Assembly (NCBI RefSeq): GCF_020085105.1
Contig: NC_058043.1
Span: forward strand, 19,135,667 to 19,199,666
DNA: 64,000 bases
Reading direction: 5' to 3'
Source of the DNA: Siniperca chuatsi
Taxonomy: Eukaryota; Chordata; Actinopteri; Centrarchiformes; Sinipercidae
The position numbers and the translations under genes were made by a program. The notes under the pieces were generated by a model. That model did no database searches, had not been told where the DNA came from, and was given only the letters and a program-made list of their open reading frames with translations. Below, one piece after another: positions 1-47,900 of the stretch. Position 1 is the first letter of the stretch, and each line of letters begins with the position of its first letter.

Positions 1-1285
1 GGTAAGGTCTATTCCAGGGTACTGGAGAGGAGAATTCGATCCGATAGTCGAACCTCGGATTCAGGAGGAGCAGAGTGGTTTTCGTCCCGGTCGTGGAACA
101 CTGGACCAGCTCTATACTCTCCATCGGGTGCTCGAGGGTTCATGGAGTTTGCCCAACCAGTCCACATGTGCTTTGTGGATCTGGAGAAGGCATTCGACCG
201 TGTGCCCCGGGCGCTTTGTGGGGAGTGCTCTGGGAGTATGGGGTCCGGGGCCCTTTGCTAAGGGCTGTCCGGTCCCTGTATAACCGGAGCAGGAGCTGTG
301 TTCGCATTGCCGGCAGTAAGTCAGACCTGTTCCCGGTGCATGTTGGACTCCGCCAGGGCTGCCCTTTGTCACCGGTTCTGTTCATAATTTATATGGACAG
401 AATTTCTAGGCGCAGTCAGGGGCCGGAGGGTGTCCGGTTTGGGAACCACAGGATCTCATCTCTGCTGTTTGCAGATGATGTCGTTCTGATGGCTTCTTCA
501 AACCAGGACCTGCAGCATGCACTGGGACGGTTTGCAGCCGAGTGTGAAGCAGCTGGGATGAGAATCAGCTCTTCCAAATCTGAGGCCATGGTTCTTGACC
601 GGAAAAAGGTGGTTTGCTCTCTTGGCGTGGGTGGGAGTCCTTGCCCCAAGTGGAGGAGTTTAAGTATCTCGGGGTCTTGTTCACGAGTGAGGGACGGATG
701 GAGCGTGAGATTGACAGGCGGATCGGTGCAGCGTCTGCAGTGATGCGGGCGCTGTATCGGACCGTTGTGGTAAAGAAGGAGCTGAGTCGAAAGACAAAGC
801 TCTCGATTTACCGGTCAATCCACGCTCCTGCCCTCACCTATGGTCATGAGCTTTGGGTAGTGACCGAAAGGACAAGATCGCGGATACAAGCGGCCGAAAT
901 GGGCTTCCTCCGCTGAGTGGCTGGGCGCTCCCTTAGAGATAGGGTGAGGAGCTCAGTCACACGGGGGGAGCTCGGAGTAGAGCCGCTGCTCCTCCACGTC
1001 GAGAGGAGCCAGCTGAGGTGGCTAGGGCATCTGATCCGGATGCCTCCTGGACGCCTCCCTCGGGAGGTGTTCTGGGCATGTCCCACCGGGAGGCGGCCCC
1101 GGGGAAGACCCAGGACACGCTGGAGGGACTATGTCTCTCGGCTGGCCTGGGAACGCCTCGGGATCCCCCCGGAGGAGCTGGAGGAAGTGTCTGGGGCGAA
1201 GGAAGTCTGGGAGTCCCTGCTTAGACTGCTGCCCCCGCGACCCGGCCCCGGATAAGCGGAAGAAGATGGATGGATGGATGGACTA
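1..1285 (+). mobile_element. Decayed RTE/Rex3-like non-LTR retrotransposon, 3' part
   Basis: Three reading frames together show a reverse-transcriptase-like protein. A VDLEKAFDRVP-type motif is encoded near 150-210, the catalytic FADDVVLMAS box near 465-500, and thumb/C-terminal segments (EFKYLGVLFTSEGR, LTYGHELWV, RWLGHLIRMP, GRPRTRWRDY) up to about 1255. The frame changes several times before position 230 and again near 620-650, and an in-frame stop interrupts it at 914-916, so the copy is dead. The 5' end lies outside the window. The 3' end is a short GGAT/GATG tandem tail at about 1264-1281, as described for Rex3-type RTE elements. The RT identity is clear. The clade assignment rests on the tail and on remembered fish elements. 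Confidence 0.88.
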
Positions 1286-5064: not shown

Positions 5065-5648
5065 GTAGGTGCTTCCACAGAATCAGAAGATGCAATGAAA
5101 TTATAAAGTTGTGGGTGGAACAACATTTCTATTTTTAGTTGTAGTCAGTGCAGGAAAAAGAGGACATGCATAAATGTTTCAGCTCAGTGTGGAGGCTCCG
5201 TGTTGGGATGCATTGCTCGTTCTTGCATTGCTAAAAAATGTTAAAAACATTTTTAAATATAGATTTTCTTGTTGTTTGTAGTGTGGGCCAATGTTTTTCC
5301 TACTATATTTCACCGCTGCTCTCCCCTAATGTGAAAACTTTGACACTGCAATAGTTTTTTACTCAACTCAAGTCATAGAGGGACAAACTCTGTTTTTCAT
5401 CAATGTTCTAGATTTAAAAATATCCACTCATGTAATGATCTTATTTTACTCCACATTGGGCTTTGTTTTGCAGGCAGACTGGATTAAAAACCGGTTTGAT
5501 ACTTGCCAATCATTCTCTGCACGAGAGTAAAAGATAAACATCCTCAACTGCAGGATTAACTAAGCAAAAGAAATTGTTTATTTAGTAGATACAATGAGAA
5601 TTAATTTGTTATGTTGGCTTGTTTTTCTTTATACTTCTGTGTTTAATA

Positions 5649-5650
5649 CA
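5649..5650 (+). other. apof: Candidate splice acceptor upstream of apof CDS
   Basis: A T-rich run followed by TTTAATACAG ends here, 39 bases before the proposed start codon. If used, it removes the upstream in-frame ATG at 5594 and leaves a short untranslated leader in the coding exon. Confidence 0.5.
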
Positions 5651-5689
5651 GTGGCTTTGGGGGGGGAAAGCTCTAACAAGAGTGGAAAG

Positions 5690-6985
5690 ATGTCCTTCAA
5701 GATGAAGTGGCTGATTGTAATCCAGCTCCTGCTGAATGAACAGGCTCTGTGCAGGGTCCCACCTCCTCTGGCAATGAGGAACCCGCCGCTTCCAGGAACT
5801 GACTACCGTGAAGAGGTAGAGGAGAAAGCCGAACAGGATCATCAGTCTCTCCTGGGATCCCTACTCCAGCTTGGTCTCCCATCTGCAGAAAAACCTGGTC
5901 CTGTATCAGTGGTTGCACAAAAAGAGGAGAGAGTCCTATCTGCCAAACATATAATATCAGTCCTCAGGGCGAAGCTTCGGGGGCAGATTCAAGCTCATCT
6001 CCACATTCAGGGGAACGGCAGCTGCGAGGAGCTGCTGTCTGCCAGCACCGTGGATGACCCATCATCCTCCATGTTGCCCCAGGAGTTGCTGGGTCTCTCT
6101 TTAGTGCCCGTGTTGGTGGTGGCAGACTGCCCACAGGAGGCACAGACCCTGGTCCTCAAACTGTACGACCTGCTAGGAATGGCGGATACGGAGGAGCTCC
6201 TGATGGAGGTGGAGGGTCTGATAGAGAGGAGGCTGAGCAAGTCTGCATCTACGCCTGCACCAGAGAGAGATCAAGCAGGGTGCCACATAGATGCTGTGAT
6301 GTTTAACATCCAGCAGCTGGCCGTGGTGGGAGAAGGTACCTCTAAGCAGGAAGGGCATTGTGAGGGTTGGACCAGGGTAAATGGAACCATGCTGGTAGGA
6401 ACAGCTGTGGAAGGAGCCACAGGTGATCTACAGGAGACTGTGAGCACCTGCGAGAGACTGGGAGTCCTGTGTGCTGGTGTGACCAGCAGTGGACCTGGGA
6501 AGTACCAGGCAGTGTTTAAGAAAGGTAGTCGCATCCTGCCCTCTGAATCCACAGAGTCTGAATGTTGGATCTTTCAGTGCAGCGCAGGGGAGAACGTTGC
6601 GATCCCCGCTGCTTCAGGTCGTCGGATGAAGCGAAGCACCCAGAGGAGCTGTATCAACAAAAGCGAGGAGCGTGTGTACAATGTGGTGGAGTGGATCCCT
6701 GCGGTCAGCACCCTCTACAACCTCGGCACAGCTGTGTATTACGCCTCAGTCAACTGCTCTGAAACAGCCAAGGAGAGAGCCATCCTCAGTGCTGTTGACC
6801 TCGGCACGGATGCTCTCATGGTCGCCACAGGGGGGACTGTCGGGGTGGCAGGATACGCCCTGGGAGCAGGTATGAAGACCGGTGTGAAAGCTGGTGTCAG
6901 GTATCTGCTCAACTCCATGAAGCAGGAAGACGACATGCTGGTGAACCAGTTCAGCTGGGAGGAGGGCGTCATCACCATCCAGTAG
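5690..6985 (+). CDS. apof: Apolipoprotein F-like secreted protein
   Basis: Single-exon CDS of 431 codons. In mammals ApoF is a secreted HDL/LDL-associated protein that inhibits cholesteryl ester transfer protein and is processed from a larger precursor. The same plan is visible here. Residues 5-22 (MKWLIVIQLLLNEQALCR) look like a signal peptide. A long variable pro-region follows. RRMKR at residues 311-315 is a furin-type site, and a 116-residue C-terminal domain with a Gly/Ala-rich hydrophobic stretch (GGTVGVAGYALGAG) comes after it. Four N-X-S/T sites (NGS, NGT, NKS, NCS) fit secretion. The open frame continues up to an ATG at 5594, but a pyrimidine-rich acceptor ending TTTAATACAG at 5641-5650 suggests the first 56 bases are intron. 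I therefore start at 5690; 5702 is also possible. The adjacent stat2 gene matches human synteny. The family call rests on domain layout and neighbourhood. Confidence 0.82.
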   Translation: MSFKMKWLIVIQLLLNEQALCRVPPPLAMRNPPLPGTDYREEVEEKAEQDHQSLLGSLLQLGLPSAEKPGPVSVVAQKEERVLSAKHIISVLRAKLRGQIQAHLHIQGNGSCEELLSASTVDDPSSSMLPQELLGLSLVPVLVVADCPQEAQTLVLKLYDLLGMADTEELLMEVEGLIERRLSKSASTPAPERDQAGCHIDAVMFNIQQLAVVGEGTSKQEGHCEGWTRVNGTMLVGTAVEGATGDLQETVSTCERLGVLCAGVTSSGPGKYQAVFKKGSRILPSESTESECWIFQCSAGENVAIPAASGRRMKRSTQRSCINKSEERVYNVVEWIPAVSTLYNLGTAVYYASVNCSETAKERAILSAVDLGTDALMVATGGTVGVAGYALGAGMKTGVKAGVRYLLNSMKQEDDMLVNQFSWEEGVITIQ

Positions 6986-17900: not shown

Positions 17901-19349
17901 TACTTCATCTAAGAAGTAGTGTACCCACGCCCTTTGTTATGTCATGAGCGACTAACTGGTTGTAATGACTGTTTGTCATTGGTCATGTAGGAACACAATG
18001 GAGGCTAGGTCACCCATGTCCTCTGACATGGCACAGGGTGAAGGCCTGGAGCCAATGAATGGCCTGTGTGGAGAGGCAGCTGGTGAGTCATGGCTCTCCC
18101 TGCTGTCCCATCCAGCTGAAAAACAATTATCAAACAAATCGCTCTCCCTTCGTCACAGAGCTTTGTGTTGTCCTCTCTATTTTGGCCTTCTGGTGTAGGA
18201 AATCAATGTGGTGGGGAAGTTGATGTCTAGATAGATGTCAGGCGACAGCTATGAGATTGCTGAATTGCTAACTTATATCCAGCTGGGCTGTTGCCGCTTC
18301 TACTGCATGCACATGGTCTGTAGTCTGCTCTACTGAACATAAAATCTTTCAGGTGTGGAGGTGATTGCTTGCAAAACTGGTCCTAATAAATTTATTAACT
18401 TAGCTTTAGCTTTTTGATTGATATGTGCCACTTACTTCTTGGAGTCTCCTCTGGTCACCTGGCAACTGCTCAGAACCAAGAAATAGTCAATTACATGTAT
18501 TTCTGATTCTGATTCTAATTTGTGAGCTTTAGAGGTACTGGTTGGCCCGATTTTGTTATCATTTGACTGAGCCAGGCTATTTGTTTCCCCCTGTTTCCAG
18601 TCTTTAAGCTAAGCTAACCGGCTGCTTGCTGTAGCCTGATATTTAATGGACAGATATGAGAGTGGTATCGATTTTCTCATTTAACTCTCTGCCAGAAAGT
18701 GAATATGTGTACAGTGTACAGTTTCCCAAAATGGTGCACTATTCCTTTTAAGAAAAAAAAGAAAGGTATGAGTGCTGTACTTAAGCTTATAGTATAGTAA
18801 GTACTTTTAATTGAGCTATTAAATATACAAACAATAAACATAAACTGAGCGTATTTAGTTAAGAGTAATCAGGTACAATTGAATAGTGTTTGAAAACTTT
18901 AATAATTTGATGAGCTGAAGGAAAACAACCAACACTGCATGCACAAAATCAAATCCTACTCGTCTGCATGTTCCTTCAGCATAAATCTGTACTTTTCGGG
19001 GGGTTTCTTTGGGTTGCTTACCACATCACATTTTTGTCACTCTCATTTCCTCATCAGAAGCAGTACCAGAAATAAACACAGCCATGACAGCAGAAACAGT
19101 ATCTTTCTCTTGTCTCTTTCTCTGCTCTCAGAACAAAACGGGAATCCTCATCCTCTGAATTCACCTGTGGAAACTTATGACCCTGATCCCATGCTGTCTG
19201 GGTCTGTTGCAGCCATGGATGACGATTTACTGATGTATCTCAACAACCCCAGCCTCTTTGTTGACTCTGACATCTCGGTACTGCCTGATTTAAATCTTCC
19301 AGGATTTAACTGCCTGCCCCCACAATCCTGTGGAAGCATTTTCCAATAA
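10875..19349 (+). CDS. stat2: STAT2, signal transducer and activator of transcription 2
   Basis: STAT2 is phosphorylated by JAK1/TYK2 at type I/III interferon receptors and joins STAT1 and IRF9 in ISGF3, which enters the nucleus. Coding exons, all GT-AG: 10875-11005, 11105-11249, 11454-11549, 12114-12206, 12308-12386, 12541-12620, 12739-12890, 13098-13256, 13353-13442, 14013-14072, 14217-14237, 14341-14434, 14741-14788, 14948-15031, 15190-15288, 15404-15539, 16241-16293, 16830-16915, 17037-17173, 17311-17499, 17710-17764, 17991-18082, 19132-19349. Phases agree at every junction and the sum is 2397 nt, or 798 residues. The STAT N-domain starts MAQWDRL. A coiled coil spans about 140-310, the DNA-binding domain about 312-480 and SH2 about 569-665, with [10 protein letters not shown] carrying phosphotyrosine-binding Arg595. 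Tyr685 (KYIKTKL) is the likely activation site. The acidic C-terminus (MDDDLLMYL onward) is the transactivation domain and is shorter than the mammalian one. [10 protein letters not shown] and the N-terminus favour STAT2 over STAT1. Confidence 0.96.
14217..14237 (+). other. stat2: 21-nt stat2 micro-exon
   Basis: Coding exon 11 holds only 21 bases and adds about seven residues (EAPQIKG region) between the exons ending in NVSMDR and starting in YRRFNVLG. The acceptor AAATTAG|G and donor AAAGG|GTGAGT are both good, and the phase fits on both sides. Confidence 0.85.
14885..14932. repeat. (TG)n tract beside a stat2 splice acceptor
   Basis: About 23 TG units end roughly 15 bases before the acceptor of coding exon 14 at 14946-14947. 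The usual pyrimidine tract is replaced by TG repeat plus TGTTTTGATGTTGACAG. Confidence 0.93.
15670..15722. repeat. Perfect 25-bp inverted repeat in stat2 intron 16
   Basis: Arms 15670-15694 and 15698-15722 are exact reverse complements around a 3-base loop (AGA). It would form a 25-bp hairpin in RNA from either strand. No known small RNA was recognised in it. Confidence 0.9.
16390..16615 (+). repeat. Interspersed fish repeat, TCTCAACAACTATTGGATGG family
   Basis: In stat2 intron 17. It holds one and a half units of a sequence in which GAAATGTCTCAACAACTATT, GGTACAGACATTC, GTGATCCCCTGA and CATCAGGTCAAAAT follow in order. Related copies are at 20770-20905 and 53035-53430, so it is a dispersed, partly tandem repeat. 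Confidence 0.75.
18521..18750 (+). repeat. Half copy of the long-TIR MITE seen at 45.7 kb
   Basis: In the last stat2 intron. GCCAGGCTATTTGTTTCCCC, TTAAGCTAAGCTAACCGGCT, GAGAGTGGTATC and the end TTTCCCAAAATGGTGCACTA match in order the right half of the element at 45686-46300. The left inverted repeat is absent. Confidence 0.8.
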
Positions 19350-20905: not shown

Positions 20906-21513
20906 TTATTCTTTGACAACAATGGCATGTGTACAGGGTACCGAAGAATAGAACTGTGTTAGTCTTCTTGTAAGATAAATCACACCTGGTAACAGTTGGT
21001 AAAGTGTGGACATGAATATGAATATTATTTGCCTTTGTCATTCACTCACTTAATGAATGCCTTGACACAACTCAAACATGCACACTCAACCCACATGTCA
21101 AACTAAAGACCAGATCACATGAACCCTTTTTATCATTAGTCATGCTAAGAGGCAATACAGAGTTGAGACACAGGTCAGAGTCACAAGTTCCTGATTTACT
21201 GAAATAAAGCCGGTTGTGTTAGACAGGAGTATCCTGTGCTGATTTTGTAACATTATTGGTTTCTCATATTATGTAACAGACACCTGAAAAACTCCAAGTA
21301 ATGACGTATAGGCTATTTTTGCTCAAAGTTCTTGACGTAACTGTGGATTGTGTATTACAAAATAGACTCTATTACATATATAACATAAACACATAATACA
21401 TAAGTACATACATAATAAAAAAGCTGCACTACGTATGTCAAGTATTTCATGAGAATAATATCCTACTGGGCTTATATCAGGAGAAACATCAGACAAGTTT
21501 AAGTTTCAGGAAA
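20906..21513. other. Intergenic, 3' flank of gpr84
   Basis: AT-rich and non-coding. I found no AATAAA on the minus strand close to the gpr84 stop codon, so its mRNA end is not placed. Confidence 0.4.
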
Positions 21514-22743
21514 TCAGGTTCTCAGAGCCTGCCACCGGGTCCACAGGCAGGTGAAAGGTGCAGCAACCCTGGTGAGCAGCATGTGGTAGGCCTGTCGAAA
21601 CTGTCTGTTCATGACAGCATAGAGCACAGGGTTGATACAGCTGTTAAGCCAGGTGAGGTTTGCACAGAACATGTGCAGTACCTGTGGGGCGCGGTTATGT
21701 TTGTCAGCTATGTTGAGCAACAGGAAGGGGACAAAGCAGAACACAAAACACAGAAAAACTGTGAAGCACATGCGTGTCACACGCTTAAATTCACCATCAT
21801 CTCCTGAAGTTGCTGAGTGTGAGGAGGATGCTGCATTTGTGGGAGCAGGTGTGGATAAAGGTGATATAGGGGCGATATCAGGGCGAGGCTTGTTGGCTGC
21901 TGATGAATTTGAGGCCTTGGCAGAGCTCTTTTCACAGGGGATCTCATCCTTATTTTGGGCTAGCTCCACCTGGCTGCTCATCTCACAGCTACATGTGTTG
22001 GTCATACCACTCCCTACACCACTGTCATCGGTCCCTTGTGCTGAAGAAGTTGGTTTCTTCCTGGAGGACCGGCGGCTGATCCTGTAGCGGAGCAGAGCCT
22101 GTGAGGCAATCTGGACACGTTTGTAAATGAGGAGGTAGAATGTGCCAACACAGGCTAGACCAACAAAAAAGTAGAAAAAGAGCAGGATGGTGGTGTAGGG
22201 GCGACCCCTGGTCCGATGGAAGCTGCATGTGCACACCTGTGGCACGAACACGTAAACATGCCATAGTGGGCCAAAGCTGGCCAGGCCTAATGCCCATGCT
22301 GAGATCAGGAGTAAAACAAGACCACAGTCTGCGAAGACACGGTCAAACACAGCCCTTTTTGTGACCAGGAGATACCTGCTCACTGCTATCAGGCAGAGGG
22401 TGATAATGGAGACAGAGTTGGAGAGGAAGAGGAGCAGGCCAAAGATGGTGCACCAGAGCTGACCACTGCGCCATCTGAGGTGTAGGTAGGAGTCAACTGA
22501 GATGGGCTGCAGTATAGTGCAGTACAGGAGATCAGCTACAGCCAGGTTGACAATGAGCACATTGAAGCGACTCCTCAGACGTGGGTCTAAGGCGAAGGCT
22601 AGAATGGTCATCAGGTTTCCCACCGTGCCAATGATGGTCACTGCACATCCCCACAGCACAGCAAAGTACCGGTAGCCTACAACTGAAGGACTGTGGCAGG
22701 AGAAGAGGTCATCTTCTGTTTGGTTTGTGTGGTTCATCAGCAT
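21514..22743 (-). CDS. gpr84: GPR84, medium-chain fatty-acid G-protein-coupled receptor
   Basis: Intronless CDS of 409 residues, a class A seven-helix receptor of the plasma membrane. GPR84 in mammals responds to medium-chain and hydroxylated fatty acids through Gi and is induced in activated myeloid cells. N-glycosylation sites (NHT, NQT) precede TM1. Family marks include GYRYFAVLWG in TM1, the TM2 segment NLAVADLLYCTILQPISVD, Cys98 in TM3 paired with an ECL2 Cys (171 or 173), SRY in place of DRY at the end of TM3, ECL2 VCTCSFHRTRGRPYTT with the conserved Arg, a Ser-rich third intracellular loop (about 222-320), and NPVLY in TM7. NPVLY is followed by MNRQFRQAY. The third loop is long, as in mammalian GPR84. 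The start follows an acceptor (CGACAG|A-ATG) exactly, so an upstream non-coding exon is likely near 23.6 kb. Family identity is very strong. Confidence 0.95.
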   Translation of the reverse strand: MLMNHTNQTEDDLFSCHSPSVVGYRYFAVLWGCAVTIIGTVGNLMTILAFALDPRLRSRFNVLIVNLAVADLLYCTILQPISVDSYLHLRWRSGQLWCTIFGLLLFLSNSVSIITLCLIAVSRYLLVTKRAVFDRVFADCGLVLLLISAWALGLASFGPLWHVYVFVPQVCTCSFHRTRGRPYTTILLFFYFFVGLACVGTFYLLIYKRVQIASQALLRYRISRRSSRKKPTSSAQGTDDSGVGSGMTNTCSCEMSSQVELAQNKDEIPCEKSSAKASNSSAANKPRPDIAPISPLSTPAPTNAASSSHSATSGDDGEFKRVTRMCFTVFLCFVFCFVPFLLLNIADKHNRAPQVLHMFCANLTWLNSCINPVLYAVMNRQFRQAYHMLLTRVAAPFTCLWTRWQALRT

Positions 22744-22951
22744 TCTGTCGACTAACAGGAATCAGAATATAGGTTAACACATTTGTCATGTGCTCACGGA
22801 AAGTTAAAGTCAAACAAAAACGCAGTCCTCCCCACCTCTCTAGTTTCAGCAGTGCCACAAGTGAAAAGGGAAGTAACAAGTGGTCTAGATAATTTACCAC
22901 CTTTTTAAATAAAGACCTCTCTCTGACAGCATCCTTTGTTTGTAGTCCCCA

Positions 22952-23169
22952 GTGTTACTCATTGTTGTAGAAAAGGTTTCAGTCGTAGTCATCTGGACAC
23001 TGTTTTCAGAATCAAGACGTTTCGGCTCCCATCCGGAAGTCATTCACAATTGGATGGGAGCCGAAATGTCTTGATTCTGAAAACAGTGTCCAGATGACTA
23101 CGACTGAAACCTTTTCTACGATAGAACACTCCTGGACGAATGAGGGACTACACCGTGTTACTCATTGTT
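22952..23169. mobile_element. Hairpin insertion with 15-bp target duplication in gpr84 intron
   Basis: Arms 22967-23034 and 23052-23119 are reverse complements over 68 bp with one mismatch, separated by a 17-base loop. The whole block 22967-23154 is flanked by the exact direct repeat GTGTTACTCATTGTT at 22952-22966 and 23155-23169. That is the signature of an insertion that carried an inverted copy of its own end. The arm sequence (AGTCATCTGGACACTG, GAATCAAGACGTTTCGGCTC) resembles a fish retroelement end, perhaps Penelope-like, but the class is not proven. Confidence 0.85.
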
Positions 23170-23600
23170 ATTATATTTTTAATTTAATGTTAATTGATCT
23201 AATGTAATTTCATTTACAACTGTTGTGGACAACTGCTGTAGCTCTAGTAACCTGACATACATTGTCTGGCAAGCATAAATAATTCCTCAACATTAGCCAT
23301 TATAAATAATGAACGAACAAAATAGGAACAGGTTTTGTGTACAGTATGATATAAAAAAAATGCCCTCTCTGTAACAACAACAATAATAATATTAATAATA
23401 ATCTAAAAAATTCTGAAATTATTTGATATTCATTTGAACTCTTTATAATATGCTCACATCACTGAGGTGAATCCTGCATATAGATTCTCAATTAGTCTAA
23501 ATTAGTGAAACATTGTGTACAATAAAGCTAGAATTTAACAGATTTAATATAATTTTTAAGGCAAATGAAAGCCCCTATTTTAAAACAAAACACAAAGAAT
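23170..23600. other. gpr84 intron remainder
   Basis: AT-rich intron sequence with a short (AAT)-rich run near 23379-23402. Nothing else recognised. Confidence 0.5.
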
Positions 23601-23607
23601 TTCTCAC

Positions 23608-23690
23608 CTTAAAGCTGAAGATTTTTGCTGGTCTTTCTAATTGTTGATGTGTAGCTGTGTCTTTCTCTGCAGTGATCTGGTGTGGTAAAT
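23608..23690 (-). other. gpr84: Probable non-coding first exon of gpr84 (5' end approximate)
   Basis: On the minus strand CTTTAAG|GTGAGAAA gives a strong donor with exon edge at 23608. The matching acceptor is at 22745-22747, one base before the gpr84 ATG. A TATA-like ATATAAG lies at about 23709-23715, roughly 25-30 bases before the proposed transcript start near 23685. The same donor-containing block recurs in the gpr84 duplicate at 28.15 kb, which supports its being part of the gene. Confidence 0.6.
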
Positions 23691-23708
23691 ATCTGACTTC
23701 CTGCTGGT

Positions 23709-23716
23709 CTTATATT
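23709..23716 (-). promoter_or_regulatory. gpr84: TATA-like element of gpr84
   Basis: The minus strand reads AAATATAAGACC here. Spacing to the proposed exon 1 fits a TATA box. The corresponding place in the duplicate (about 28250) has lost the motif. Confidence 0.4.
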
Positions 23717-23989
23717 TACATCCTCCCTGTTGCGTTAGTTCACTCTACATGATGAAATGGTATGAAATAGGGCTTTTCCATTTCATGTCCAAATTCAGGA
23801 AGAGAGATCTTGCATAGATTTTTTTTTTTATATTTCAAATGAAATAACCAAATGTGGAAAAAATGTATTCTTTTACTGAAATGTGTTTTGGTATGTCTGC
23901 ATACTGCATGTCACAAGGGACTTCCAAACAAAACAGGACTTGACCCCAGTTGATGAAATATTTTGATCATTACTATGTTTAAAGGGACA

Positions 23990-24290
23990 GTTCACCCCCA
24001 AATCAAAAGTACATATTTTCCCTCTTGAGTTTTGGAGATATCAGCTGTAGAGATGTCTGCATTTTTTGAATATAATGGGACTATATGGCACTTGGCTTGT
24101 GGTGCTCAAAGCGGCAAAAAAATTAATTTGAAAAACTCAACAGCAATGTCTCTTTCCAGAAATCATGACCTGGTTACTGAAGATAATCCACAGATTTGTT
24201 GTGAGCAGTTTCATGTAGGAACTATTTTCTTTCTACCGATAGTTCCTACATAAAACTGCTCACAACAAATCTGTGGATTATCTAGAGTAA
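23990..24290 (+). repeat. Fish interspersed repeat starting AAAGGGACAGTTCACCCC
   Basis: AAAGGGACAGTTCACCCCCA near 23981-24000 starts a block that matches, in the opposite orientation, the block ending at 35179. Shared segments include GATATCAGC...GTAGAGATG, TTTTTTGAATA and AGAAATCATGACC. This copy contains an extra hairpin: 24182-24224 against 24240-24282, 43-bp arms with one mismatch. Confidence 0.8.
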
Positions 24291-24589
24291 CCTCGTAGTG
24301 ACTTTGTTCTACCCTGGTGATTTATATGGTACACTGCAGAGGTGTTGTCTGTTCTCACCAGCACATGCTTCTGACGTGAGATAGATAAATGGCCCTCAGT
24401 TCGAGCACATGTGTTCTGATGACCAAGGGTCCCACATGCCCCTCACTGTCCTGCCCTCCCATTCGGCTCCCAGCCCATCAGCGATGCATCTGTTTATTGA
24501 TCTTTTGTGAGGAACGTTCCCCAGTGGGGTTCCTCCATGGGAACAGGGCTGCATGCAGGACTGTGCCACGAGCAGATTCATCCTCCTGT

Positions 24590-24945
24590 CAATTCAATTT
24601 TATATATATATATATAGCGCCAATTTATAACAGAAGTTATCTCATTGGACTTTTCCTATAGAGCAGGTCTAGACCGTACTCTTTATAATATTATTTACAG
24701 AGACCCAACAATTCCCACCAAGAGCAAGCACAGGCTACGAGAAAGAGAGCAGCCTAGTTGGGATGGGGTCTAAGAGACAGGTTGATGGCTTAGATGAAGA
24801 AATCATTGAAGTTAGTTGGAGAAGGTCAATGGGAGAAAAGCAGTCTAAATATATATCAGGTTTTTCAGCTGTTTCTAAGGTTCCTGTCATTGCCGGTTGA
24901 GGGCAGGACGTGATTAATTTTGTCTCAAATAATTGGTGGAATGCC
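24590..24945 (-). mobile_element. L2-like LINE fragment
   Basis: Minus-strand frame 24947-24735 encodes SSKPSTCLLDPIPTRLL, the start of the reverse-transcriptase domain typical of L2-clade LINEs in fish. The upstream piece CFSPIDLLQLTSMI fits the same family. The + strand begins with a TATA microsatellite (24602-24616) and TAGCGCC...ATAACAGAAGTTATC, resembling the repeat end at 39835-39960. Only a fragment remains. Confidence 0.65.
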
Positions 24946-25139
24946 ATTTCCTTTCAAGACTGAAATTAGCATAGGAGTCCTCTGTTATATTGAGACATGA
25001 CATTGAATTAAATGCAGATGAAATCACTTCCTTAAATTTAGCTTCAGCACTATCAGATATACATCTAGTGTAGGAATTTTTGCACAATAGCGTGTAGTCC
25101 AGTAATAGCAGTTCAAAAGTTATTAAATAATGTTTTTTC

Positions 25140-25805
25140 TTTTTTGGATGATGAAAGGAGTTGAACCGTTGCTGTATGGGACGCACCCTCAGCAGGCCCA
25201 AGGGAATCACCACCGATGCTGCTGTCATCAATCCCAGCAGTTTCTGAACCCTGTGAGCAGTCACAAGCTTCCCTAGTTCAAAGTGTCTTAATGCTTTCTC
25301 CAAACTGTCAACCAAATGGGGAGTGAGACATTGTCACAGAATTGAAGTGGAGACCATGAAAGTTTACCAAGGCCACAGATTGCTCTTCTTCCAGTTCACT
25401 GTGAACCCCAGGGACTGAACATGAGACAACACCATCTCTGTGTCCTGGATTACTTGATCTAGAGAAGGGGCACAAATTAACCAGTCGTCCAGATATGGCA
25501 GGATTTTGAGACCCTGAAACCGAAGGACTAAAAGACCACCCGAGTAAAGATCCTTTGTGCCAGTGACATGAAACTGTAAAACTTGAACTTGGAAAGCAAA
25601 GCGGAGAAAGGGTCTGTGTTCTGGACAAATCAGGACGTGGCAATATGCATCTTTGAAATTGAGGGATGTAAAATCACTCTCCTGCGCTGATGGACTGCAT
25701 TACTATTTTTGTATGAATCATTTTGAATCAGAGTACCTTCAGATATCGTTGAGGAACCTGAGGTTGAGAACAGGCCGATGACCACCATCTTTCTTTGGAA
25801 CTAGG
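25140..25805 (-). mobile_element. DIRS-like retrotransposon reverse transcriptase fragment
   Basis: Reading on the minus strand, three frames give KDGGHRPVLNLRFLN (about 25750-25800), PYLDDWLICAPS with the YLDD catalytic box (about 25470-25510), LSHVQSLGFTVNWKK, then ALRHFELGKLVTAHRVQKLLGLMTAAS and IPLGLLRVRPIQQ (to about 25165). This order and the last motif fit DIRS-type elements better than Ty3. Frame changes between the motifs show the copy is dead. It abuts L2-like sequence downstream, so the block is nested or composite. Confidence 0.75.
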
Positions 25806-26170
25806 GCTGGGCAATATCGCTTATAAATAATATCTCGATATTTTTAGGCTATGCTGCAATATACAATATAGGCCTATGTCTCGATATACACATTTTCTCT
25901 AAAATAACATACCGTAAATTCTCAGATAGTGCAAACATATGATTATCTTGTAGAATATGATGCATTGCTGAAGATTAAACTACCCAATAGTATATAAAGC
26001 AAGCTCAACCATAAACATCTACAGCAGTAAAATGCAACATACACATTAATGCAACAGTAATATTAATCCAGAAACATCATATATAATAGTAAAACACTAA
26101 CGGGGACCATTTTACTCTGCAATGAGTACTTGCAGAACTTTTACTTGTAGTACTCTAAACCTCTGTTTAA
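25803..26170. repeat. Probable hAT-like terminal repeat sequence and diverged repeats
   Basis: TAGGGCTGGGCAATATCG at 25803-25820 followed by ATATCTCGATAT resembles the start of a very common fish non-autonomous hAT-type element. No matching inverted end was located. The stretch near 26110-26160 resembles the reverse of the repeat at 63.7 kb. Confidence 0.45.
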
Positions 26171-26179
26171 AGGTCAGGG

Positions 26180-26900
26180 CTGGCTTGCGTTCGTTCGTTG
26201 GACAGTTTCCCTCATTGTAATAGAGCGCTCAGCCCTATACAGCACATCCTGGATGAAAGACTTGACCAGGCATTACTGGCAAAATCATCAGTTCATTCCT
26301 TGTGGCATCTGGCAAAGAAGTCTGTGCCAGCCACACTTGCCCATGACCTAAGACAGCTGATGACAAAGCCTCCCCCACATCACGTGTCAGTTCCACACCT
26401 TCCATTCTCACCACTGAGTGGCAGTAATGCACCTGCTTTAGTTTCTCAAACTGCAAATGCATCATTGTACAGGTTGTCTGAAATAGCATGTGATTGTGAG
26501 GAGATCAGAGGTGTGGACTACAATTCTTGCATCTTGACTTTTACTTATCATTAGTACCAAACTGGTATTTGATGTGAATACTTCCCTCAACTACCTCTAT
26601 ATGTGTGACAGTACGACCATGAAGTTTGTCCAGTAACACATAGGTTGTAACACACATGTCGTACTTCCACAAATCCAAAAGACATACATCTTCATATTAA
26701 TCTAGATGCCATTTTTGTATGTGGTGAACATTTTAAAGGCACACCCTGTCAAGTTCCTTTCCCTTTTTCTCCATCCTTCCTAATCTCTACCCTTTAAATT
26801 TATCACCCAGACAAACAACTGAAGACTTGATAGTGGCTGAATGCAAGATGCACTGCATTATTTAATCAGAATATCATATGGGGCCAATATGAATACAAAC
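26180..26900. other. Intergenic with a short repeat shared with 32.2 kb
   Basis: 26400-26465 and 32185-32245 share the CCATTCT-ACCACT-AGTGGCA-TAATGCACCTGCTTTAGTTT motif in the same orientation. The ORF over this stretch has no domain and is probably spurious. Confidence 0.5.
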
Positions 26901-26924
26901 ACCACTTTAAATTCCAGGAGTTGA

Positions 26925-27158
26925 CCACTGGGTCAGAGCCAGATAAATGGTGCCACAGCCCTGGTGAGCAGTACATGCTAGGCCGGTCGAAACTGCTGGT
27001 TCATGACAGCATAGACCACAGGGTTGATACAGCTGTTGAGCCAGGTGAGGTTTGCACAGAACATGTGCAGGAGCTGTGGGACGCGGTTATGTTTGTCAGC
27101 TATGTTGAGCAACATGAACGACTAACAGGAATCAGAATATAGGTTAACACATTTATAA
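26925..27158 (-). pseudogene. Truncated gpr84 duplicate
   Basis: 26930-27112 closely matches the 3' coding part of gpr84 (21540-21713), covering TM7 and the start of the C-tail. Then 27119-27158 matches the 5' edge of the gpr84 coding exon (about 22748-22788), so about 1 kb coding for TM1-TM6 and the third loop is deleted. A TAG at 26978-26980 stands where the functional gene has the Tyr of RQAYHMLL. The acceptor of the parent (CGACAG) is lost at the junction. The matching leader region is at 28130-28290. A new ATG at the junction opens a 45-codon frame, listed separately. Confidence 0.9.
26978..27115 (-). CDS. 45-codon TM7-only ORF in the gpr84 duplicate
   Basis: The deletion junction creates an ATG (27113-27115) in the original gpr84 frame. 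Translation from it runs MLLNIADKHN through the TM7 motif ANLTWLNSCINPVVY to QFRPA and a stop, 45 residues. Only one membrane helix is encoded. Whether it is transcribed is unknown, and the parent's splice acceptor is gone. It is most simply a by-product of pseudogenisation. Confidence 0.35.
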   Translation of the reverse strand: MLLNIADKHNRVPQLLHMFCANLTWLNSCINPVVYAVMNQQFRPA

Positions 27159-27273
27159 AAGTGCTTTGAGACGGTTGCCTGCTGCCACCTTAAAGGTTTT
27201 CAATGTCAGTCATGCTGCTGAAGTCGTCAGTAGTGCAGTGACAAGGTGGCAGGGCAGCTGGCTGTCAAACGCG

Positions 27274-27749
27274 TTCTCATTCCCAGGGCATCAAATACTA
27301 ATGTTTTGTTACATCCTTCCGCGTTGTATAAACTCGCGCAAGGTACCCTTTTGCGTTAGTAGGAGATGCCTTCAGAAACAATGTAACGCCACTTAAAAGT
27401 TAGGTTTAGGGAAAAAAACACTTGGTTAGGCAGTAGAAAATCACGTAACAGTACATGTCACGTGACATGTACCGTAACTTTAAAGTCAACTTTAACTTTT
27501 GGTTTCCCCTGGGATCTATGCACGGGACATGAACTCCTCCGTCTCCTGGGTGAAAGTCCTGGGTTTGACCCATTCGACCTCCCCACTTAAGCAGATTTTG
27601 TTGCTCTTTACATTATGTCACCTGATTTTATAAAGGCTTTCTGGCAGCCCTGTGCGTCTAATACAGACGCTAAAGATTACCTTGTGTGTGTTTATATGAC
27701 GCCAAAGGGCAAGACAAAACGTCTGTATTTGACACCCTGGGAATGAGAA
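27274..27749. mobile_element. Non-autonomous DNA transposon, 476 bp, with TIRs
   Basis: The left end TTCTCATTCCCAGGGCATCA and the right end, read on the other strand as TTCTCATTCCCAGGGTGTCA, are near-perfect inverted repeats extending through CAAATA. There is no transposase. A perfect 22-bp palindrome, GTACATGTCAC/GTGACATGTAC, lies inside at 27451-27472. The element sits between the two parts of the gpr84 duplicate. Confidence 0.85.
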
Positions 27750-28129
27750 TGGGCTAGGCTATGGCAACCACAGAAACTACACTGAAGGAAACAAAACCGC
27801 TTATTTTACTGGTATTCGAGTTCCCTAAATTATACACCTCTTTGTGATTGAACAAACATATCAATGAAGGGAAACGGTCTTGGAGCAACATCAACTTCGT
27901 CATCATCATCATCAACTGGTCACTTAATTTATCTTTTCTTAAATAAAGGGATTAATCGTTTAGTCTGAAATGTCAAAAATTGGGAAAAAAGCCCATCACA
28001 AGACCTTAGAGGCCAGGTTGACAACTTTAAATTGCTTGTTTTGGCTGACAAACTATTCAAAACCCAAACAATGGCAAACTCAGCATTTAACCATACCTTT
28101 CGTTTTTAATTGCTTAAACAAAAATGTGC

Positions 28130-28290
28130 GGCCTTCAATTTCTCACCTTAGAGTTGATGACCTCCGCCAGTCTTTTTATATGTTCATGTGCATATGTCAT
28201 TCTCTGCAGTGATCTTGTCCTCTGATTGTCAGTCTTCCTGTTAGCATGTTGTTTTATGTGCATCCTCTTTTTTTAAGTTTGCTCTACAGA
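28130..28290 (-). pseudogene. Leader/promoter part of the gpr84 duplicate
   Basis: TTTCTCACCTT, CATTCTCTGCAGTGATCT, CTTCCTG and ACATCCTC-like blocks occur in the same order and spacing as at 23601-23735 beside gpr84. The splice donor of the non-coding exon (AAG|GTGAGAAA on the minus strand) is kept, while the TATA-like motif is not. With 26925-27158 this shows a segmental duplication of the whole locus followed by deletion. Confidence 0.75.
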
Positions 28291-29639
28291 CAATGTATTT
28301 TTCCTTTTTATATTTCCTCTTAGTATTTGTTTGCAGACTGGACTGCAACTTAATCAGCTTTTGATTACGAATAGTTTGAAAGCCAAAATGTAGATATGTT
28401 TTACTATATCTTTTATGTCTGTTAGTCACTTATTACTATAGTACTGTACTGTATGTCAGAATATTTTAAACATTACTCACATTGCGCACACTGTGTACTT
28501 GCATTATTACTTTACTAAACTACTCGTACAACCAATTGCATTTGTGATTTATTATTGTCATATCTCATTACATTTGAAAAAATGAAAAAATCACCAATCA
28601 ACATTGCTTACAACCATGAATTCAGTGTAATGATTTTATATATAATTTTGTTTTAATTTAACAATTAGGAAGCCCCAACATGTACCTTTTCTCATTTGTT
28701 AATAATCTACATTTACAGTAATGTTTCAATACACATCTCCTAAATAACAATTCATACATTTGTAGACATTTTCTTTTTATTGCAGTTAACAAGAAAAGTT
28801 AGCAGGAGTGCTTAAAGTATTGCTACAGTTTCCGTTTCCTAAAGCTTCCCTCTAATTTTTCATAAGCCATCATGACTGTTGCACTGGGATAGTTCAGGGT
28901 CATGTAGGGTTGGAGCACACAAGGCAGAGCTGACAAACTAAACAGTTTTATGCCACTATAGGCCTATAATACTACCAAAAATGGTGTGTTGTTTTTTGCA
29001 TACAACTACTCATCTGTGTATGTGGTCCTTTTCTCTTCCTTCTGTAACATAATGCTGGTGTCTTTCATCCCAATGTCTTCGACACTCCTTGTATGGGATT
29101 GTGGTGAAAATGTGGTCTGTATTGAATGTGCACATAATGCAAATACCTGCTACTAAAGTCACAAATCAACCATTGTCCAGCTGTGAAACTATTCTGTTAA
29201 GACACTGAAACCTTTCTGTTTTGCGCAGTGAGGTGCAGATGAGAAAATGATAGATTGTTATTTTAAATGTATTTAAGCCATTTACATGTAGATTTTTCAC
29301 CACAGACTTTTACTTATGTGCTTTTTGGGGCTTTATGCATGTGGTTGTTGTCAATGGCCATTCAGGGAGAATCTGGGGAATTATTAGGGGAACTAAGAAA
29401 CTAACTTTGTATGGGTTTTGCCTCTCATTCTGTTCTTATTTTCTATATTTTACACAGACCGAAGAAAATAAACACTGATAGCTGCATAAAGCACCAGTAG
29501 CAATTACTTCTTCACAACATTTCCACCTTTGCCAAACCATAAATGTGGTTGATGTACACATCAGTACAGTTTCAAGTTTCAATTTCTGCCCTTTTGCTGT
29601 TCCTCTTTGACTTCCTGTTTCTGTCCCACAGAGGTAAAT
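28291..29639. other. Intergenic, gpr84 duplicate to znf385a 3' side
   Basis: AT-rich, no gene. A minus-strand AATAAA (TTTATT at about 28776-28781) could be the distal end of znf385a, 2.1 kb beyond its stop codon, but this is weak. Confidence 0.35.
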
Positions 29640-31153: not shown

Positions 31154-33115
31154 CTTTGCAAAAGTCAAGAAAAAATAGAAATGTAAATGTGACACAACTT
31201 TAAGTACTGGTGCATGCAAGAGTTTTCCTAAAACCTAAATGATAATGTTTTCATGGGGGGAATTGAGAAATATGGAATATGACTGTGAGAAAGACAAACT
31301 GAGTCTCTACCATAAAGTCTGTGCGCTTCTTGTGCCGACTGAGAAGAGGATTAGGTTTCCCTGCAACTCCATCCCGATGCCTACGGCTAGATATATGCTG
31401 AAACATAAAATGAGAAAGGACAGATACTGAATATTGAGATTGCTTTGAAACTTCTTCACTTAAGGTCTTCGGATCTTTGTGTGAGTTTCTCACCTGTTTT
31501 AGCTGCAGCTCTGAGTTGACTCTGACGTTGCAGATCTCACAGTGGAAGGTGCGTTCCTGAGTGTTGGGGTCAGAGGACAGCTCCCCTCCTTGCTCTGGGC
31601 TGGGTTTAGGACCCAGACGTGGGTATGCTTTAATGGGTCCCAGTCCACTCCGAGCCTCCAGAATGGTTTTGTGTTTGGTACCTGAAAACAATAAAAAGAA
31701 AGGTATAATCTGAGGTGGTAATCGAGGCCATGTTACAGTGTAGTGCATATACTAAATACTAAAGACTAAATAATAATTGACTATGTGGTGGTCTTAACTG
31801 CTGTTTCCAAGATCAAGAATTAACTTTGACCTTAGCTTTTAAGCCAACATGGATGAGGAGTCCTTAAAGTGCTAAAAATTTGAACATCTGCAATTCCATG
31901 ACAACTGGGCAAACTCCATGAGGATCATGTGATATGACAGAAATCACCAGACCAGCTACTAAATGGACCTCGTGGTGAGATTGTTTGCTCAACTAGTGCA
32001 TGGTTTTTTAAAAAGTGCAGAGAACAAAATCTAAAGCTAGATGTTATAAAATATATCAGCTTGAGATGGGAGAGTATTCCTGTAATTGCATTAATTGAGT
32101 GAGACAATATTTAGTATAGGTGGTAGGCAGTGATGTTTTTATCACCACCCATCTACACCCAGTCAAACCAAGCAGTTTTTAACCTGCCATTCTTACCACT
32201 AAGTGGCACTAATGCACCTGCTTTAGTTTTCAAACTTAAAATGCAGAATAAGTGCAGAATTGCATCTAAAGAGCCATGGCTCGGGGTGTGTGAAGTAGCT
32301 TCGAAGAGTGCATACTGCATAATGCTGCTGTTTGTAGAGGTTTATTTCTCTCAAGATTGTGCATACTCTGTGGCGGGACGTACTTATAAATATGTGCACT
32401 CTGACACAGCTGTGTTGGAGTTACCTTTGTTGTGTGCCTCCAGTTGTGAGAGGGAATTAACAGCTACTTTGCACAGGGAGCAGTAGAGAAGCTTCTTGGC
32501 TTTCTCTTCCTCTGACTCTCCTGAAGAGGGGCTGGGTGCTGGGGAGGGGGTTTCAGGAAGACCAGCCGCTGCTGGATCCACAGGGGGGGTACTGAGGGCC
32601 GGGGAGGGAGAACATGGCAAAGGTGTGTTGACAGAAGGCAAGAGGGAACACTCTGCGTCTGCTGAGCTCAGTGTGGGTGTTGGAAGGTGGCTAGGGGTCA
32701 AAGGTGACTTGTTAGAGTTGTGACAGGATTGGGTGTCATCTGTAAACAGCAAAAAGTTTTCAGGTTAGTGAATAATTTGTGGAAAGTCAACCACACAATA
32801 AGCCTTTCAACCCTGATGATCATGATGATGAAAGTGTGAAAATAACAATGCTGCTTTTCCAGCAATAGTGTTGTGCTTGAAACTCTTCCTCTTTGAGGTC
32901 GAACACACAGCTGTGCCGGCCCATCTGGACCTGCCAGCACGTCTGGCCACCCTTGTGTAGTGACATCTTAGCTAGACGAGATTTTGTGACTAACTACTGT
33001 ACTTCCATTTCTTAGTAAACACCAGGGCTCCTAAACTCCTCTCTGGTTAGTCTCTATCCTATCACTTCACACAACAGCTGTGTTGTGATGTGCATCTGTG
33101 CCATTTTGTGACAGA

Positions 33116-33162
<47 letters not shown>

Positions 33163-36100
33163 CTCGATATGTCACAGGTGATGCTCACCCTGCTTATTAG
33201 GATCAGGTTCAGGGCTGGATGGCGAGGGGCCTGGTGGAGTGGGCGAAGCAGTAGGGGGAGGGTGCTGCTTGTCGCCATCTTGGAGACGAGCTATCTTGGA
33301 TGTCTCGATCCCCTTCACCCTCCGAGCATGGCGATTCCCCTTATAGTGGGCCTCTGCCTGGCTCTGGCAGAAGAACAAGACATGACAGAGAAATATGAAG
33401 TCATGAATTTAAATGGGCACGACTGGATTCTTATTTCCATTTTAAACAGAACATTTCATGTTGTTCACCATGTTGGTTATCATTATTCCCTTTTTTCTTG
33501 GTGACCCTCCATGAGCTTCAGTCAGAGAGCCAGTGAGGTCGATGAAGTGAACCCACACTGCCATGTGGAGTGGATTTATTTGAACAGATTCCACTGGACT
33601 CCCCAATGAGCTGTGTGCTGCTGGTAGCACTAGCATTAGAAATGTGACTCATTACTTGTTTTTTCTGGTTACTTATACAGTCGTAAGCATTTAGGTAGCT
33701 ATAGGTGGGCTTGTCAGATGTTCATTACCCAGCAAAAGCAAAAAAGCTTACACTGAACACATTCAAATGTAACACCAGTTAAACCTTTGATATCTCAATA
33801 CATTTCAAAAACAAGTCACACCCATTTGAATCTTCTACCTTCAAAATCTAAATGTCTTCACATGGTATTACCTCTGCTTTGCTGTTAAGAGTAGTGCAGA
33901 GATTTGATTGGTGGTTGGGACCAGAAAGGTGCTGTCTCAAATTCCTGGACCAGTCATTGTGAAAATAAGGGTTTGGACTGGAGAATGAAAGAGTAATTCT
34001 TTCCTTTCCCACAACAACTACTGATGAGATGTCTGTGAACAAACTCCCAAGAGTTAGTGTCCATCAATTGAAGACTGATTGTGATGGGCGGCTTCCAGGT
34101 CTGGATGTGTCATAACGTAGCAGGAACTAAACGACTGAGTGACTGTTTATAACCAAGGGTTCTCCGTGGACTTCCGTTGGTTAATAAATGTTAAAGTAAA
34201 CAAATCCCCATATTTTATGACCCCAAGGATAATACAATAATTACTCACAAATTCTGAATGCACCCTGCATTTTTTATGCGTTATAGTAAATGGCTGTTGA
34301 GCTGATGGTTTACGAATATGATGTGCTGATGAGGCTAGCGGGGGAAGATTAGCCTCTAGAATATTCTCGTCTTCCTTCACTACTGGTGTAATCACTGAAC
34401 TGGCCTGTTGAGCTGATGATGATTATCGAGTGATGGGATTATCTAAAATGGGCTGCAGGGCTGTGGGCGTCCAGTGACAGTTGACAGTCAGCTACTGAGA
34501 GAAAAAAATGGAGCAAATCAAGAAGAGTTTGTGTTCATGAGTGTGTGTTTGCCTGCTTGTCCTTGTGTGATTGCACTTAAGAGGATCAGTTTAAACTCAG
34601 GAAATGGGAAATATGAAGAAGAGTGGGCATTTCAGAAAGTCCTTTAGTGCGGGTGTAAAATTTTGTGTTATAGTTTATCAGAGTTAAGGTTAAGGTAATG
34701 TGAGACTACTTATATGGTAAGGTTATAATCCTTTAGATTATCATGAAATCAAACCCCATTTTTGATACTATTTACGATCAGGGTATGACATAAACAATGG
34801 CCCGGGGCCAGTAAAAGTTTATGCCGGGCAAGTTGATTGACAAATCACTGGTCCGTCCAAGCCTTATGAAAAGATGGTCGTCCTTCTTTAAAAGGACTCG
34901 GCTTGCGGTGCTCAAAGAAAACTATTTTCTTGATAGTTCCTGCATGAAACTGTTCGCAACAAATATATGGATTATCTTGAGTAACCGGGTCATGATTTCT
35001 GAAAAGAGACATTACTTTTGAGTTCCATATAGTTCCATTGTATTCAAAAAATGCAGTCATCTCTACGGCTGATATCTCCAAACTTCGGCAACTCACACCA
35101 AAACAATCTAGATGGATAAATAGCACTACAGGTAAGAGGGAAAATACGTATTTTGGATTTTGGGGTGAACTGTCCCTTTGCTGAGATACTTGTGGCTAGC
35201 TAGCCATATAGCCAGCTGCGTTGAGCTAAACAGCTACAGCAACGTTTTATTTCTCTGATTCACTGGCTTTCTTACTGGTGCTCCCTCTCTCTCACTCTCA
35301 AACAACAGAAACACAAACCAAAGGAAGCTTCTTCGTATCACTATTTTTCAGCATAGACTGCAAGCCAGACACAGACTTTGAAGCTGGGTACACAAAATAA
35401 ACGAAGCGAGGAAACAACTGGGAGAGTATTATAGTTTGGTCCATGAACTCCACCTGGATAGCGCCTGGTTTCAGTGATAATGTCGAGTGCTGTGGGTTTT
35501 TGGCAGGCAAATCTCCCAAGTGGAGACAAAATAAGTCACGATTTTCATAGTTGTCAGTTGTATTCAAACAACATGGACAGCAGTCTAAACAAGCAATTTG
35601 ACTTCCATAGGCTGTGACTGGCATCAGATGATGGTGTTGTTAGCTACTTCCTAAACACACAAAGAGAGCCTGGAAGGGTGCATTTGATTTATTGTTCCCA
35701 TCCTTGCCAAATTTGTGGACAGCCTCACTATTCAAGATGTCCTTTGCATTAGGCAAGGACAGATAACAACAACAACAATAACAACAATAATAATACTGTC
35801 ATCCCTACAATGTACTGTACTGTACTGTACTTTTTGACTGGATTAAAATGTAAATATTTACCTAATGTCTTATTATGTAAGGGAATGATTGAAATGTCCT
35901 TTTATGGTAAGTGTTGCAATATAGGGCCCCTAAAATTATTAAGTGATGGAGAAAAAAAAGAGTTATTTTCATTTTTTGGCTGCCGGGCCAGTGAAAATAT
36001 ACAAGGGGCCAGTAAAACTCTGATATACTGACCAAGTGGGGCCAGTGGGGAAAATATGTTACGTTGGACACTGATGGTTGGCATTTTTTCAGCAATATCC

Positions 36101-44972: not shown

Positions 44973-47900
44973 TGCACGTGCATTGTACTGTTTGTCGCCA
45001 CGCTGACCTTCACATGAAACCCAATCTGGAAATGAGAAGGAGCCACAGAAAATGCTGACTGTAGAAAACCCAGCCTGTGCCTCTTATACAATTGATTAGC
45101 TGTAACTCATTTTATTGCAGTAAAACACTCGCCTGGGAATTTTCTCAATTATGCTGAAACTCACTCTGCTGAATAAAAAGTAAACAGCTGTCACCTTATC
45201 ATTTTAGATTATACAGGATAAATCCTCAGCACTTTATCACTTATCTTCACTCTGGAGGCAACGCTCCAAAACCACAACTGAACACCAGCTTCTGTTAAGT
45301 GAAACAAGATGATAAGGAGTCCCAGGCACTGTGTGTGCATGCATGTGTATTCATGCCTGTGTGCAGGTATGCCTGTGAGCACTCACTGTATTAAAGTTGT
45401 GGAAGAGGCCGATATTGGCTGGGTGAGGCGACTCCAGGGGGAACTGGAATAAGGGCTTCATGTCCAGTGGGGCTTGGATGACAGGTGGGCTCCTGAGGAA
45501 GGCAGGGACCGGCCCCGGTCGGTTTACACTTCCTGTGGTAGATGCACAAGCAGGGAAATCAGAGATTAAAACAATTTAAAAAGCATAAAGGATAATGTAG
45601 AGAATCACATATTGAAATCATTGCACAAGGTTTGTTAATGATAAGGTGAAGACAACTACGACATTTGATTAAATATTTTCTTGAAGGAATAGTCAGACAT
45701 TTTGGGAAATACACTTACAAGCCTTTGTGCTGAGAGTTAGATGAGAAGAGTGATACAGCTCTCGTGTAAATATGAAGCTTCTGCACGCAGCTGGTTAGCT
45801 TAGCTAACACAAAAACTGGAAACAGCTAATCTGGACCTGTCCAAAATCCGCCTACCAGCAGTTATAAATTAGGTCACTAATTAACACATTATATCTCGCG
45901 TGTTTAATCCATACAAAAACCGAAGTGTAAAAACGTCAGGTTGTCGTTTTACAGGGGGTTTTGTGCAGGACTATTTCTTGGCCGGGAGCCGTAACAGCGC
46001 AGTCCAGCACATTACCCCCCTTAAAACCACGTGTTATTTTTGCACTTTGGTTTTTGAACAGATTAAACAAATGAGAAATAACATGTTAATTAGTGAGTTT
46101 TACAGGTGACGGTAGGTGGATTTTGTTACCTTTGGACCTTAGCCAGGCTAGCTGTTTCCCCCGATTCGAGTCTTTGCGTTAAGCTAAGCTACCCGGCTGC
46201 TGACTATAGCTTCATAATTACCGACGTGAGAGTGGTATCAATCTTCTAATCTTACTCTCGGCAAGAAAGCAAATAATTTCCCAAAATGTCACCCTATTTC
46301 TTTAAAGCTAAGTATCATATCTTATTCATATCTTAATTTTTTTTTCCTTCTCTGGTTAAATAAATCTAATACTCCACATTGTCTAAATCTAAACCCTCAC
46401 CTTCTGCGTCATTTTCCCATATTGAGCCCCACCACCCACACGTCTCCTCTCTCTGCTTCTCTTGCTCACTTTTCTCTCAGTAGTAGCTCAGCAGCGGTGA
46501 ATGCCTGCACTTGAGGAGTGTTCTGTGATGGGCAGGAGGGCTAAGCTCCTTAAGCCTCGCAGCTGGGGTGCTGCAGATATCCGCCTTTTCTCCATTTCTT
46601 CCTCTGTCTCTCTCTCACCAAGCACAGTTTTCTATCCCTTATTCTGTCTGCCTGCCTCTGTGTCCCTCATCTGTACTTTTCCTCACTCCAGCACCAGTCC
46701 TTCTAGCTGTTTTGTTCCTCCTTCTCCTCATCCTCTTTCTGTTTTGCTCTCTCCTTTCCACTTGTGCTTCCCGTAGTTATTCTTCTCTTTAGTGTAAAAC
46801 CAGCAGGGTACTTCAGGCCCAATCTGGCCATGCAGAGAGAATTTGTATAATCATCATCCTTTATTGCCACCGCTTTGTGATGACTACTTAACGATTTTGT
46901 TACACTTGAAAAGAAAAACTGGTCACTTGTCAAAATGAGGGGAAGAAAAGGCTATTTTGGTAACAGCAGAGGAGGCTCCTTTCACTGACAGCAGGGGAGA
47001 CGTAAAGAATGTGCTGTCAGGATCAGAAATAGATGGAGAGGAAAGTCTCTCCTTCTGGCATTGCTCTTTAGACCTTTGCAGTCCTTGGGAGGCTGTGGCA
47101 GCTGAAGCTCAGCTGTAGCTATTGTCATTTGTGTGTGGCTGCTTTCACATATGCTGCATGAGAAGGAAGGGAAATAAGATATAAAACTGGAGGTCACAGT
47201 TTAAATGTCCTTCAGACACGCCATGAATCCCACAGCTCACATGACAGCCGTTATCACCTCTCCAAACCAACCACAGCAAGATTTGTGCAGAGTGAAAAAA
47301 CGGCGATAATAACACATCTTATTTCACACCAACATGCAAACATGTAGGAATAAGTGAACGCTCAACACCGGATATCATGACGGAATGAGTGTAAGCAATA
47401 GCAAGATAAAGATACATTTTGGTTCAAAAAAAGCAATCTGGGACTATTCTTATATGATCATAGAAAGTTTGATGTATTTTTATTTTATTATATATGTTTA
47501 AAAATTTAAATATTAAATGATAAGGATGATGATATTTTTGTTGTTTCATGGGATTTGAAGACAAAATCCCATGAAAAGACCCATGCTTACAACATGTTAG
47601 TCCAGCTGTTAATACTTTATGGCTCCCCCAACCAGTCTGTGGATCTCAGCCCCAAGCCCATTTGTTCCTACTGAAGATGCAAATCTTTAAAAACGGGTCA
47701 CAGATATATACTTTCATTTTTAAAATATGCTAGTTTGTAGAAGACATTATCAAACAGGAGTAAATAGTGCATTTGTTCGGGACTATTTTAAGCCGCGGAT
47801 TAATACACATTTGGTGAACTAGTGAGTGTATACAAAATGGTGTTGGCTCAAAATAAAGTGCCCATGTTCATGGTGGTAAAGGAACATGCCACTCAGTGCA

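Follow-up and report, generated by a model that had tools for sequence, protein, structure and literature searches.

GPR84 is a receptor for medium-chain fatty acids and an immune receptor. Dead gene copies are common, and the gpr84 copy described here would belong to their ordinary, non-processed kind. Pseudogenes of tandem-duplicated GPCRs are generally known to lie, as this copy does, in tandem and on the same strand, to keep intron parts and flanks, and to carry truncations and stops; what the copy adds is a probable conversion tract, and it otherwise falls within this kind. Partial conversion between tandem paralogues is likewise known to leave a sharp-edged tract of high identity in a more diverged duplicate, but in the copy the probable tract spans a 1-kb deletion and no longer has an upstream edge. 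In bats, according to a report on GPR84 pseudogenes (PMC9508565), the GPR84 coding sequence was likewise inactivated by stops and deletions, but there the orthologue itself was lost, whereas here gpr84 is intact and an extra copy is dead. The same report states that humans are without a GPR84 paralogue, and neither ‘duplicat’ nor ‘copies’ occurs in its main text. Copies of gpr84 are not discussed in passages from two further papers (PMC10002231, PMC6763605), and among the PubMed Central matches listed, we recognised no report of a tandem gpr84 copy in a fish, although one may exist.

Within a 64-kb window (the whole stretch of DNA that was analysed), we find an intact gpr84 and, upstream of it on the same strand, a broken copy (Table 1). 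Our preferred explanation, to which we give a probability of roughly three in four, is that the copy is a non-processed pseudogene: an old whole-gene tandem duplicate of gpr84 that was partly converted, and then truncated and dead.

Table 1. Features of gpr84 and of its copy, in window coordinates
Feature	Positions	Strand	Basis and details
gpr84: intact coding exon, 409 aa	21514–22743	−	ORF; from the ATG at 22743 to the stop codon ending at 21514
gpr84: predicted 5′UTR intron	22752–23607	−	sequence letters; acceptor AG 22753–22752, donor GT from 23607
gpr84: putative non-coding leader exon, portion homologous to copy	23608–23681	−	third BLASTN block; last base 23608
Copy: decayed 3′ flank, homologue of that of gpr84 (limits approximate)	26785–26924	−	alignment and shuffles
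Copy: remainder of TM7 and the C-tail, starting at codon 340	26925–27118	−	87.7% to 21532–21726, E 4e-65
Copy: high-identity tract spanning the deletion junction, proposed gene-conversion remnant	26999–27154	−	change-point test; 150/156 sites
Copy: 3′ end of the intron, including its splice acceptor, and 3 bp of exon	27119–27154	−	36/36 vs 22749–22784, E 2e-12
TIR-like element in the copy's intron	27274–27749		arms 27274–27369 / 27654–27749; inverted repeat 74% over 96 bp
Copy: leader exon (ends at 28147), donor GTGAGA retained	28137–28218	−	77.4% to 23598–23681, E 6e-12
Copy: 5′ flank, homologous to the DNA upstream of gpr84 as far as 23749	28219–28288	−	alignment and shuffles

The intact gene and its collinear copy

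The gpr84 protein has as its top phmmer match among solved structures ‘G-protein coupled receptor 84’ (8j18_R, E 2.3e-124, residues 5–395), which we take to be human GPR84, and it carries the Pfam domain 7tm_1 (E 3.3e-36). The donor of its predicted 5′UTR intron has eight of the nine consensus letters, and no ATG is found in the 108 nt that cover the putative leader exon. The same intron holds a foldback of 153 bp (22967–23119, 91.5% self-complementary), which has no second place in the window and looks like a small foldback transposable element.

When positions 26500–28800 were compared with the whole window by BLASTN (E up to 0.001), three matches to gpr84 were obtained, all collinear and on the same strand, with E values far beyond chance, just as an earlier note on this DNA had described. 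That note had taken the middle block for the 5′ edge of the coding exon, but the block is mostly intron: 33 of its 36 bp are intron end with the acceptor AG, and the three exon bases TCG that follow are joined directly to codon 340. The third block does comprise the leader exon with its splice donor, as had been claimed, the donor (AAG-GTGAGA) agreeing with that of gpr84 in nine of nine letters.

A search with the gpr84 unit (21300–24000) against the whole window (E up to 0.01) returned the copy blocks, the internal foldback and, at 35.8 kb, two matches of low score that measure 31 and 28 bp. Repeats and the TIR-like element lie close by, and could suggest that the blocks are a dispersed repeat also inserted in gpr84, or else a processed (reverse-transcribed) copy. 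Each block, however, occurs at two places only in the 64 kb (gpr84 and the copy) and one of the blocks is protein-coding, which argues against a dispersed repeat, while the intron end, the donor and the 5′ flank are all present, which argues against a processed copy; we therefore reject both origins within the window and regard their probability as close to nil. An assembly artefact, such as an uncollapsed haplotype, seems just as implausible, as the tandem layout alone speaks for it, but the leader block is 77% identical, the intron interiors are unalignable and the transposon-like element differs.

Extent of the duplicated unit

The duplication had been described earlier as partial, and this is not supported by the flanks. 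In shuffle tests, for which first-order Markov shuffles were made of one partner only, the 3′ flank (21300–21513 vs 26700–26916) scored 28.5, compared with an average of 15.3 among its shuffles (sd 3.2), and the 5′ flank (23682–23760 vs 28219–28300) scored 21.0 against a mean of 10.5 (sd 2.2), with none of 500 shuffles reaching the score in either comparison. For five random window pairs that served as controls, 45, 8, 171, 66 and 62 of 200 shuffles scored at least as high as the pair itself. As both flanks are homologous, the duplicated unit reaches at least from the 3′ flank to a point some 70 bp upstream of the leader exon, that is, over a whole gene, and the middle was presumably lost later.

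Further out on the 5′ side, beyond 23750/28289, similarity was not above background (31/500 shuffles at least as high). No homology was detectable between the intron interiors of gpr84 and the copy (140/500), and narrower intron comparisons also stayed within background (208, 141 and 244 of 500 shuffles; 47 and 64 of 200), as did a comparison of the 3′ part of the gpr84 intron with 24000–26900 (99/200). No poly(A) signal could be shown to be common to the DNA behind the two genes, where AATAAT occurs at 21257 and 21029 for gpr84, and ATTAAA at 26866 and AATAAT at 26862 for the copy.

A TIR transposon had been placed between the blocks, and a TIR-like inverted repeat is indeed present in the copy's intron, but no clear target-site duplication was seen around it. 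Homology to gpr84 ends at 27154, 119 bp short of this element, and resumes only at the leader exon; given this gap, the element is not enough to explain the break, and more must separate the blocks. A palindrome of 34 bp (88%) is located within the element at 27445–27478. Three pairs of interspersed repeats were recorded in the window (23981–24225 / 34933–35179; 26397–26461 / 32182–32245; 18516–18705 / 46087–46275), and in two of these pairs one member lies between gpr84 and the copy; for 20–30 kb, neither Tandem Repeats Finder nor Rfam gave any rows.

Deletion and stop codons

The copy is without the equivalent of gpr84 21727–22748, a stretch of 1,022 bp that comprises 5 bp of 5′UTR and codons 1–339, and the loss is at one junction (27118/27119), in agreement with the roughly 1 kb of coding DNA previously noted as missing. 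No microhomology was seen in the breakpoint letters. For codons 1–339, tblastn gave no convincing match elsewhere in the window (TM7 stands out at E 1.5e-27, and the next match is at E 0.23), which contains no intact second gpr84. From the usual seven-helix layout, the copy presumably lacks everything from TM1 to most of TM6.

Read in frame, what remains is open through TM7 as far as codon 386, which has changed from TAC to TAG (26980–26978), and a second stop follows at codon 401 (by the codon table); the replacement of a Tyr by a stop is thus real, but the residues before it, given earlier as RQA, are RPA in the copy. A weak match to Pfam 7tm_1 persists in codons 340–385 (E 0.00056, 19.9 bits), under the curated cut-off of 30.5. 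Judged from its sequence, this remainder would be unable to make a receptor, and the copy probably lacks function. The proposal that a duplicated gpr84 has turned into a pseudogene is thus well supported by the collinear homology, the absence of codons 1–339 and the two stops, and the retention of intron parts, splice signals and flanks alongside these disabling changes is that of a non-processed pseudogene.

Mosaic divergence and probable gene conversion

Divergence between gpr84 and the copy is distributed unevenly. We applied a change-point test to the 36-bp block and codons 340–400 (219 ungapped sites with 22 mismatches), and a single change point is best placed after codon 379, separating 6 mismatches in 156 sites (36-bp block and codons 340–379) from 16 in 63 (codons 380–400). 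Only 2 of 5000 permutations do as well, and 8 of 5000 when the coding block is taken alone. Third positions differ at 2 of 40 codons before this point and at 9 of 21 after it (Fisher 0.0006, on small numbers), and the leader block, like the tail, is far more diverged than the middle.

An abrupt shift in silent-site divergence between paralogues is what gene conversion would be expected to produce, and such a shift is present at codon 380, again on small numbers. We infer that the high-identity tract probably represents a partial conversion of the older duplicate by gpr84, although the direction cannot be read from two sequences. The tract is short and the tail consists of 63 sites only, and codon 380 has three neighbouring differences that may stem from a single event or from two indels that compensate each other. 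Since the intron interior is without detectable homology, the upstream end of the tract cannot be placed.

It is also possible, though we consider it unlikely, that the copy is a tandem pseudogene that never experienced conversion, and that its uneven identity reflects past purifying selection on TM7 together with chance. TM7 is conserved among rhodopsin-like receptors, the numbers are small, and dN/dS is below 1 throughout (0.5 over codons 340–385, with 10 changes; 0.36 over codons 340–400; 0.27 over codons 386–400, with 11 changes), which likely reflects past constraint on gpr84, on a live copy or on both, and could add to the contrast. Against this, the third positions jump too, and the tract includes 36 identical sites in 36, of which 33 are intron, a run with a probability of 0.01 at 12% divergence. 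Moreover, divergence starts in the most conserved heptad (codons 380–386, RQFRQAY): gpr84 and the solved GPR84 differ there at none of seven residues, compared with 11 of 40 at codons 340–379, while the copy differs from gpr84 at three of the same seven (stop included) and at 4 of the 40. The jump does not track the conservation between gpr84 and the solved GPR84, and constraint on gpr84 does not explain it.

Under the preferred explanation, that of an old duplicate partly converted and then truncated, a unit of about 2.4 kb with the whole gene (5′ flank, leader exon, intron, coding exon and 3′ flank) would have been duplicated in tandem and in the same orientation, and the two genes would then have diverged for a long time. 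Later, gpr84 would have converted at least the intron end and codons 340–379 of the copy, after which a deletion of 1,022 bp, beginning 3 bp inside the coding exon, would have taken out everything as far as codon 339. Conversion is placed before the deletion because the high-identity tract extends to either side of the junction. The stop codons and the foreign DNA in the intron would be further damage, to which we assign no place in this order. The description of the copy as ‘recently lost’ may be right for the final step; in the leader exon and tail, divergence is much higher than in the middle. A young duplication, private to this lineage, is argued against by the 77% identity of the leader block.

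Possible residual activity of the leader exon

The leader exon and promoter of the copy could conceivably still be active, a possibility to which we attach little probability. Splicing would then be either to the copy's own acceptor, giving a non-coding or short-ORF transcript, or to the acceptor of gpr84 5.4 kb downstream, giving an alternative 5′UTR. Such activity would fit the position of the copy upstream of gpr84 on the same strand, its acceptor identical to that of gpr84, and its donor, which has kept all nine letters of the gpr84 donor (25 of the 3,691 GT sites on this strand score at least 8/9). The predicted splice from 28147 to 27121 would also yield an ORF of 65 aa that starts at a leader ATG and continues into TM7, but in-frame leaders of at least 18 codons arose in 387 of 5000 shuffles (72-nt leader) or 633 of 5000 (114-nt leader), and an ATG further upstream in the 114-nt stretch opens an ORF of 16 codons first. 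At these shuffle frequencies the 65-aa ORF counts for little, and for nothing by itself, and we have set it aside as probably due to chance.

A more specific version, in which the leader and promoter of the copy would act as a second promoter of gpr84, appears slightly less probable again. Transcription would start at about 28.2 kb, and the donor at 28147 would be joined to the acceptor of gpr84 or to the one before 27121, the latter for a 65-aa microprotein with TM7 as its single helix. If this were true, the loss of a receptor copy would have led to extra regulation of the surviving immune receptor.

Other features of the window

Three further features lie outside the gpr84 region. First, an open stretch of 473 codons from stop to stop (5564–6982, plus strand) matches the Pfam family Apolipoprotein F (E 1.4e-21), and phmmer found no solved relative for it at E 0.001. 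Second, a reverse transcriptase fragment (48–740, plus strand; Pfam RVT_1, E 1.2e-16) marks a retroelement remnant at the window edge. Third, an open stretch on the minus strand (31254–31751) has a zf-met zinc finger (E 8.8e-06), which is consistent with znf385a without being proof of it.

Implications

If the copy is a dead whole-gene duplicate, as we believe most likely, the lineage formerly had two adjacent gpr84 genes. Unless relatives retain the second gene, this is largely an annotation matter, the remnant being at risk of a miscall as a gpr84-like gene. Should relatives retain it, the copy number of a medium-chain fatty acid receptor would vary among fish, and the conversion tract would illustrate how a dying duplicate can be kept partly young.
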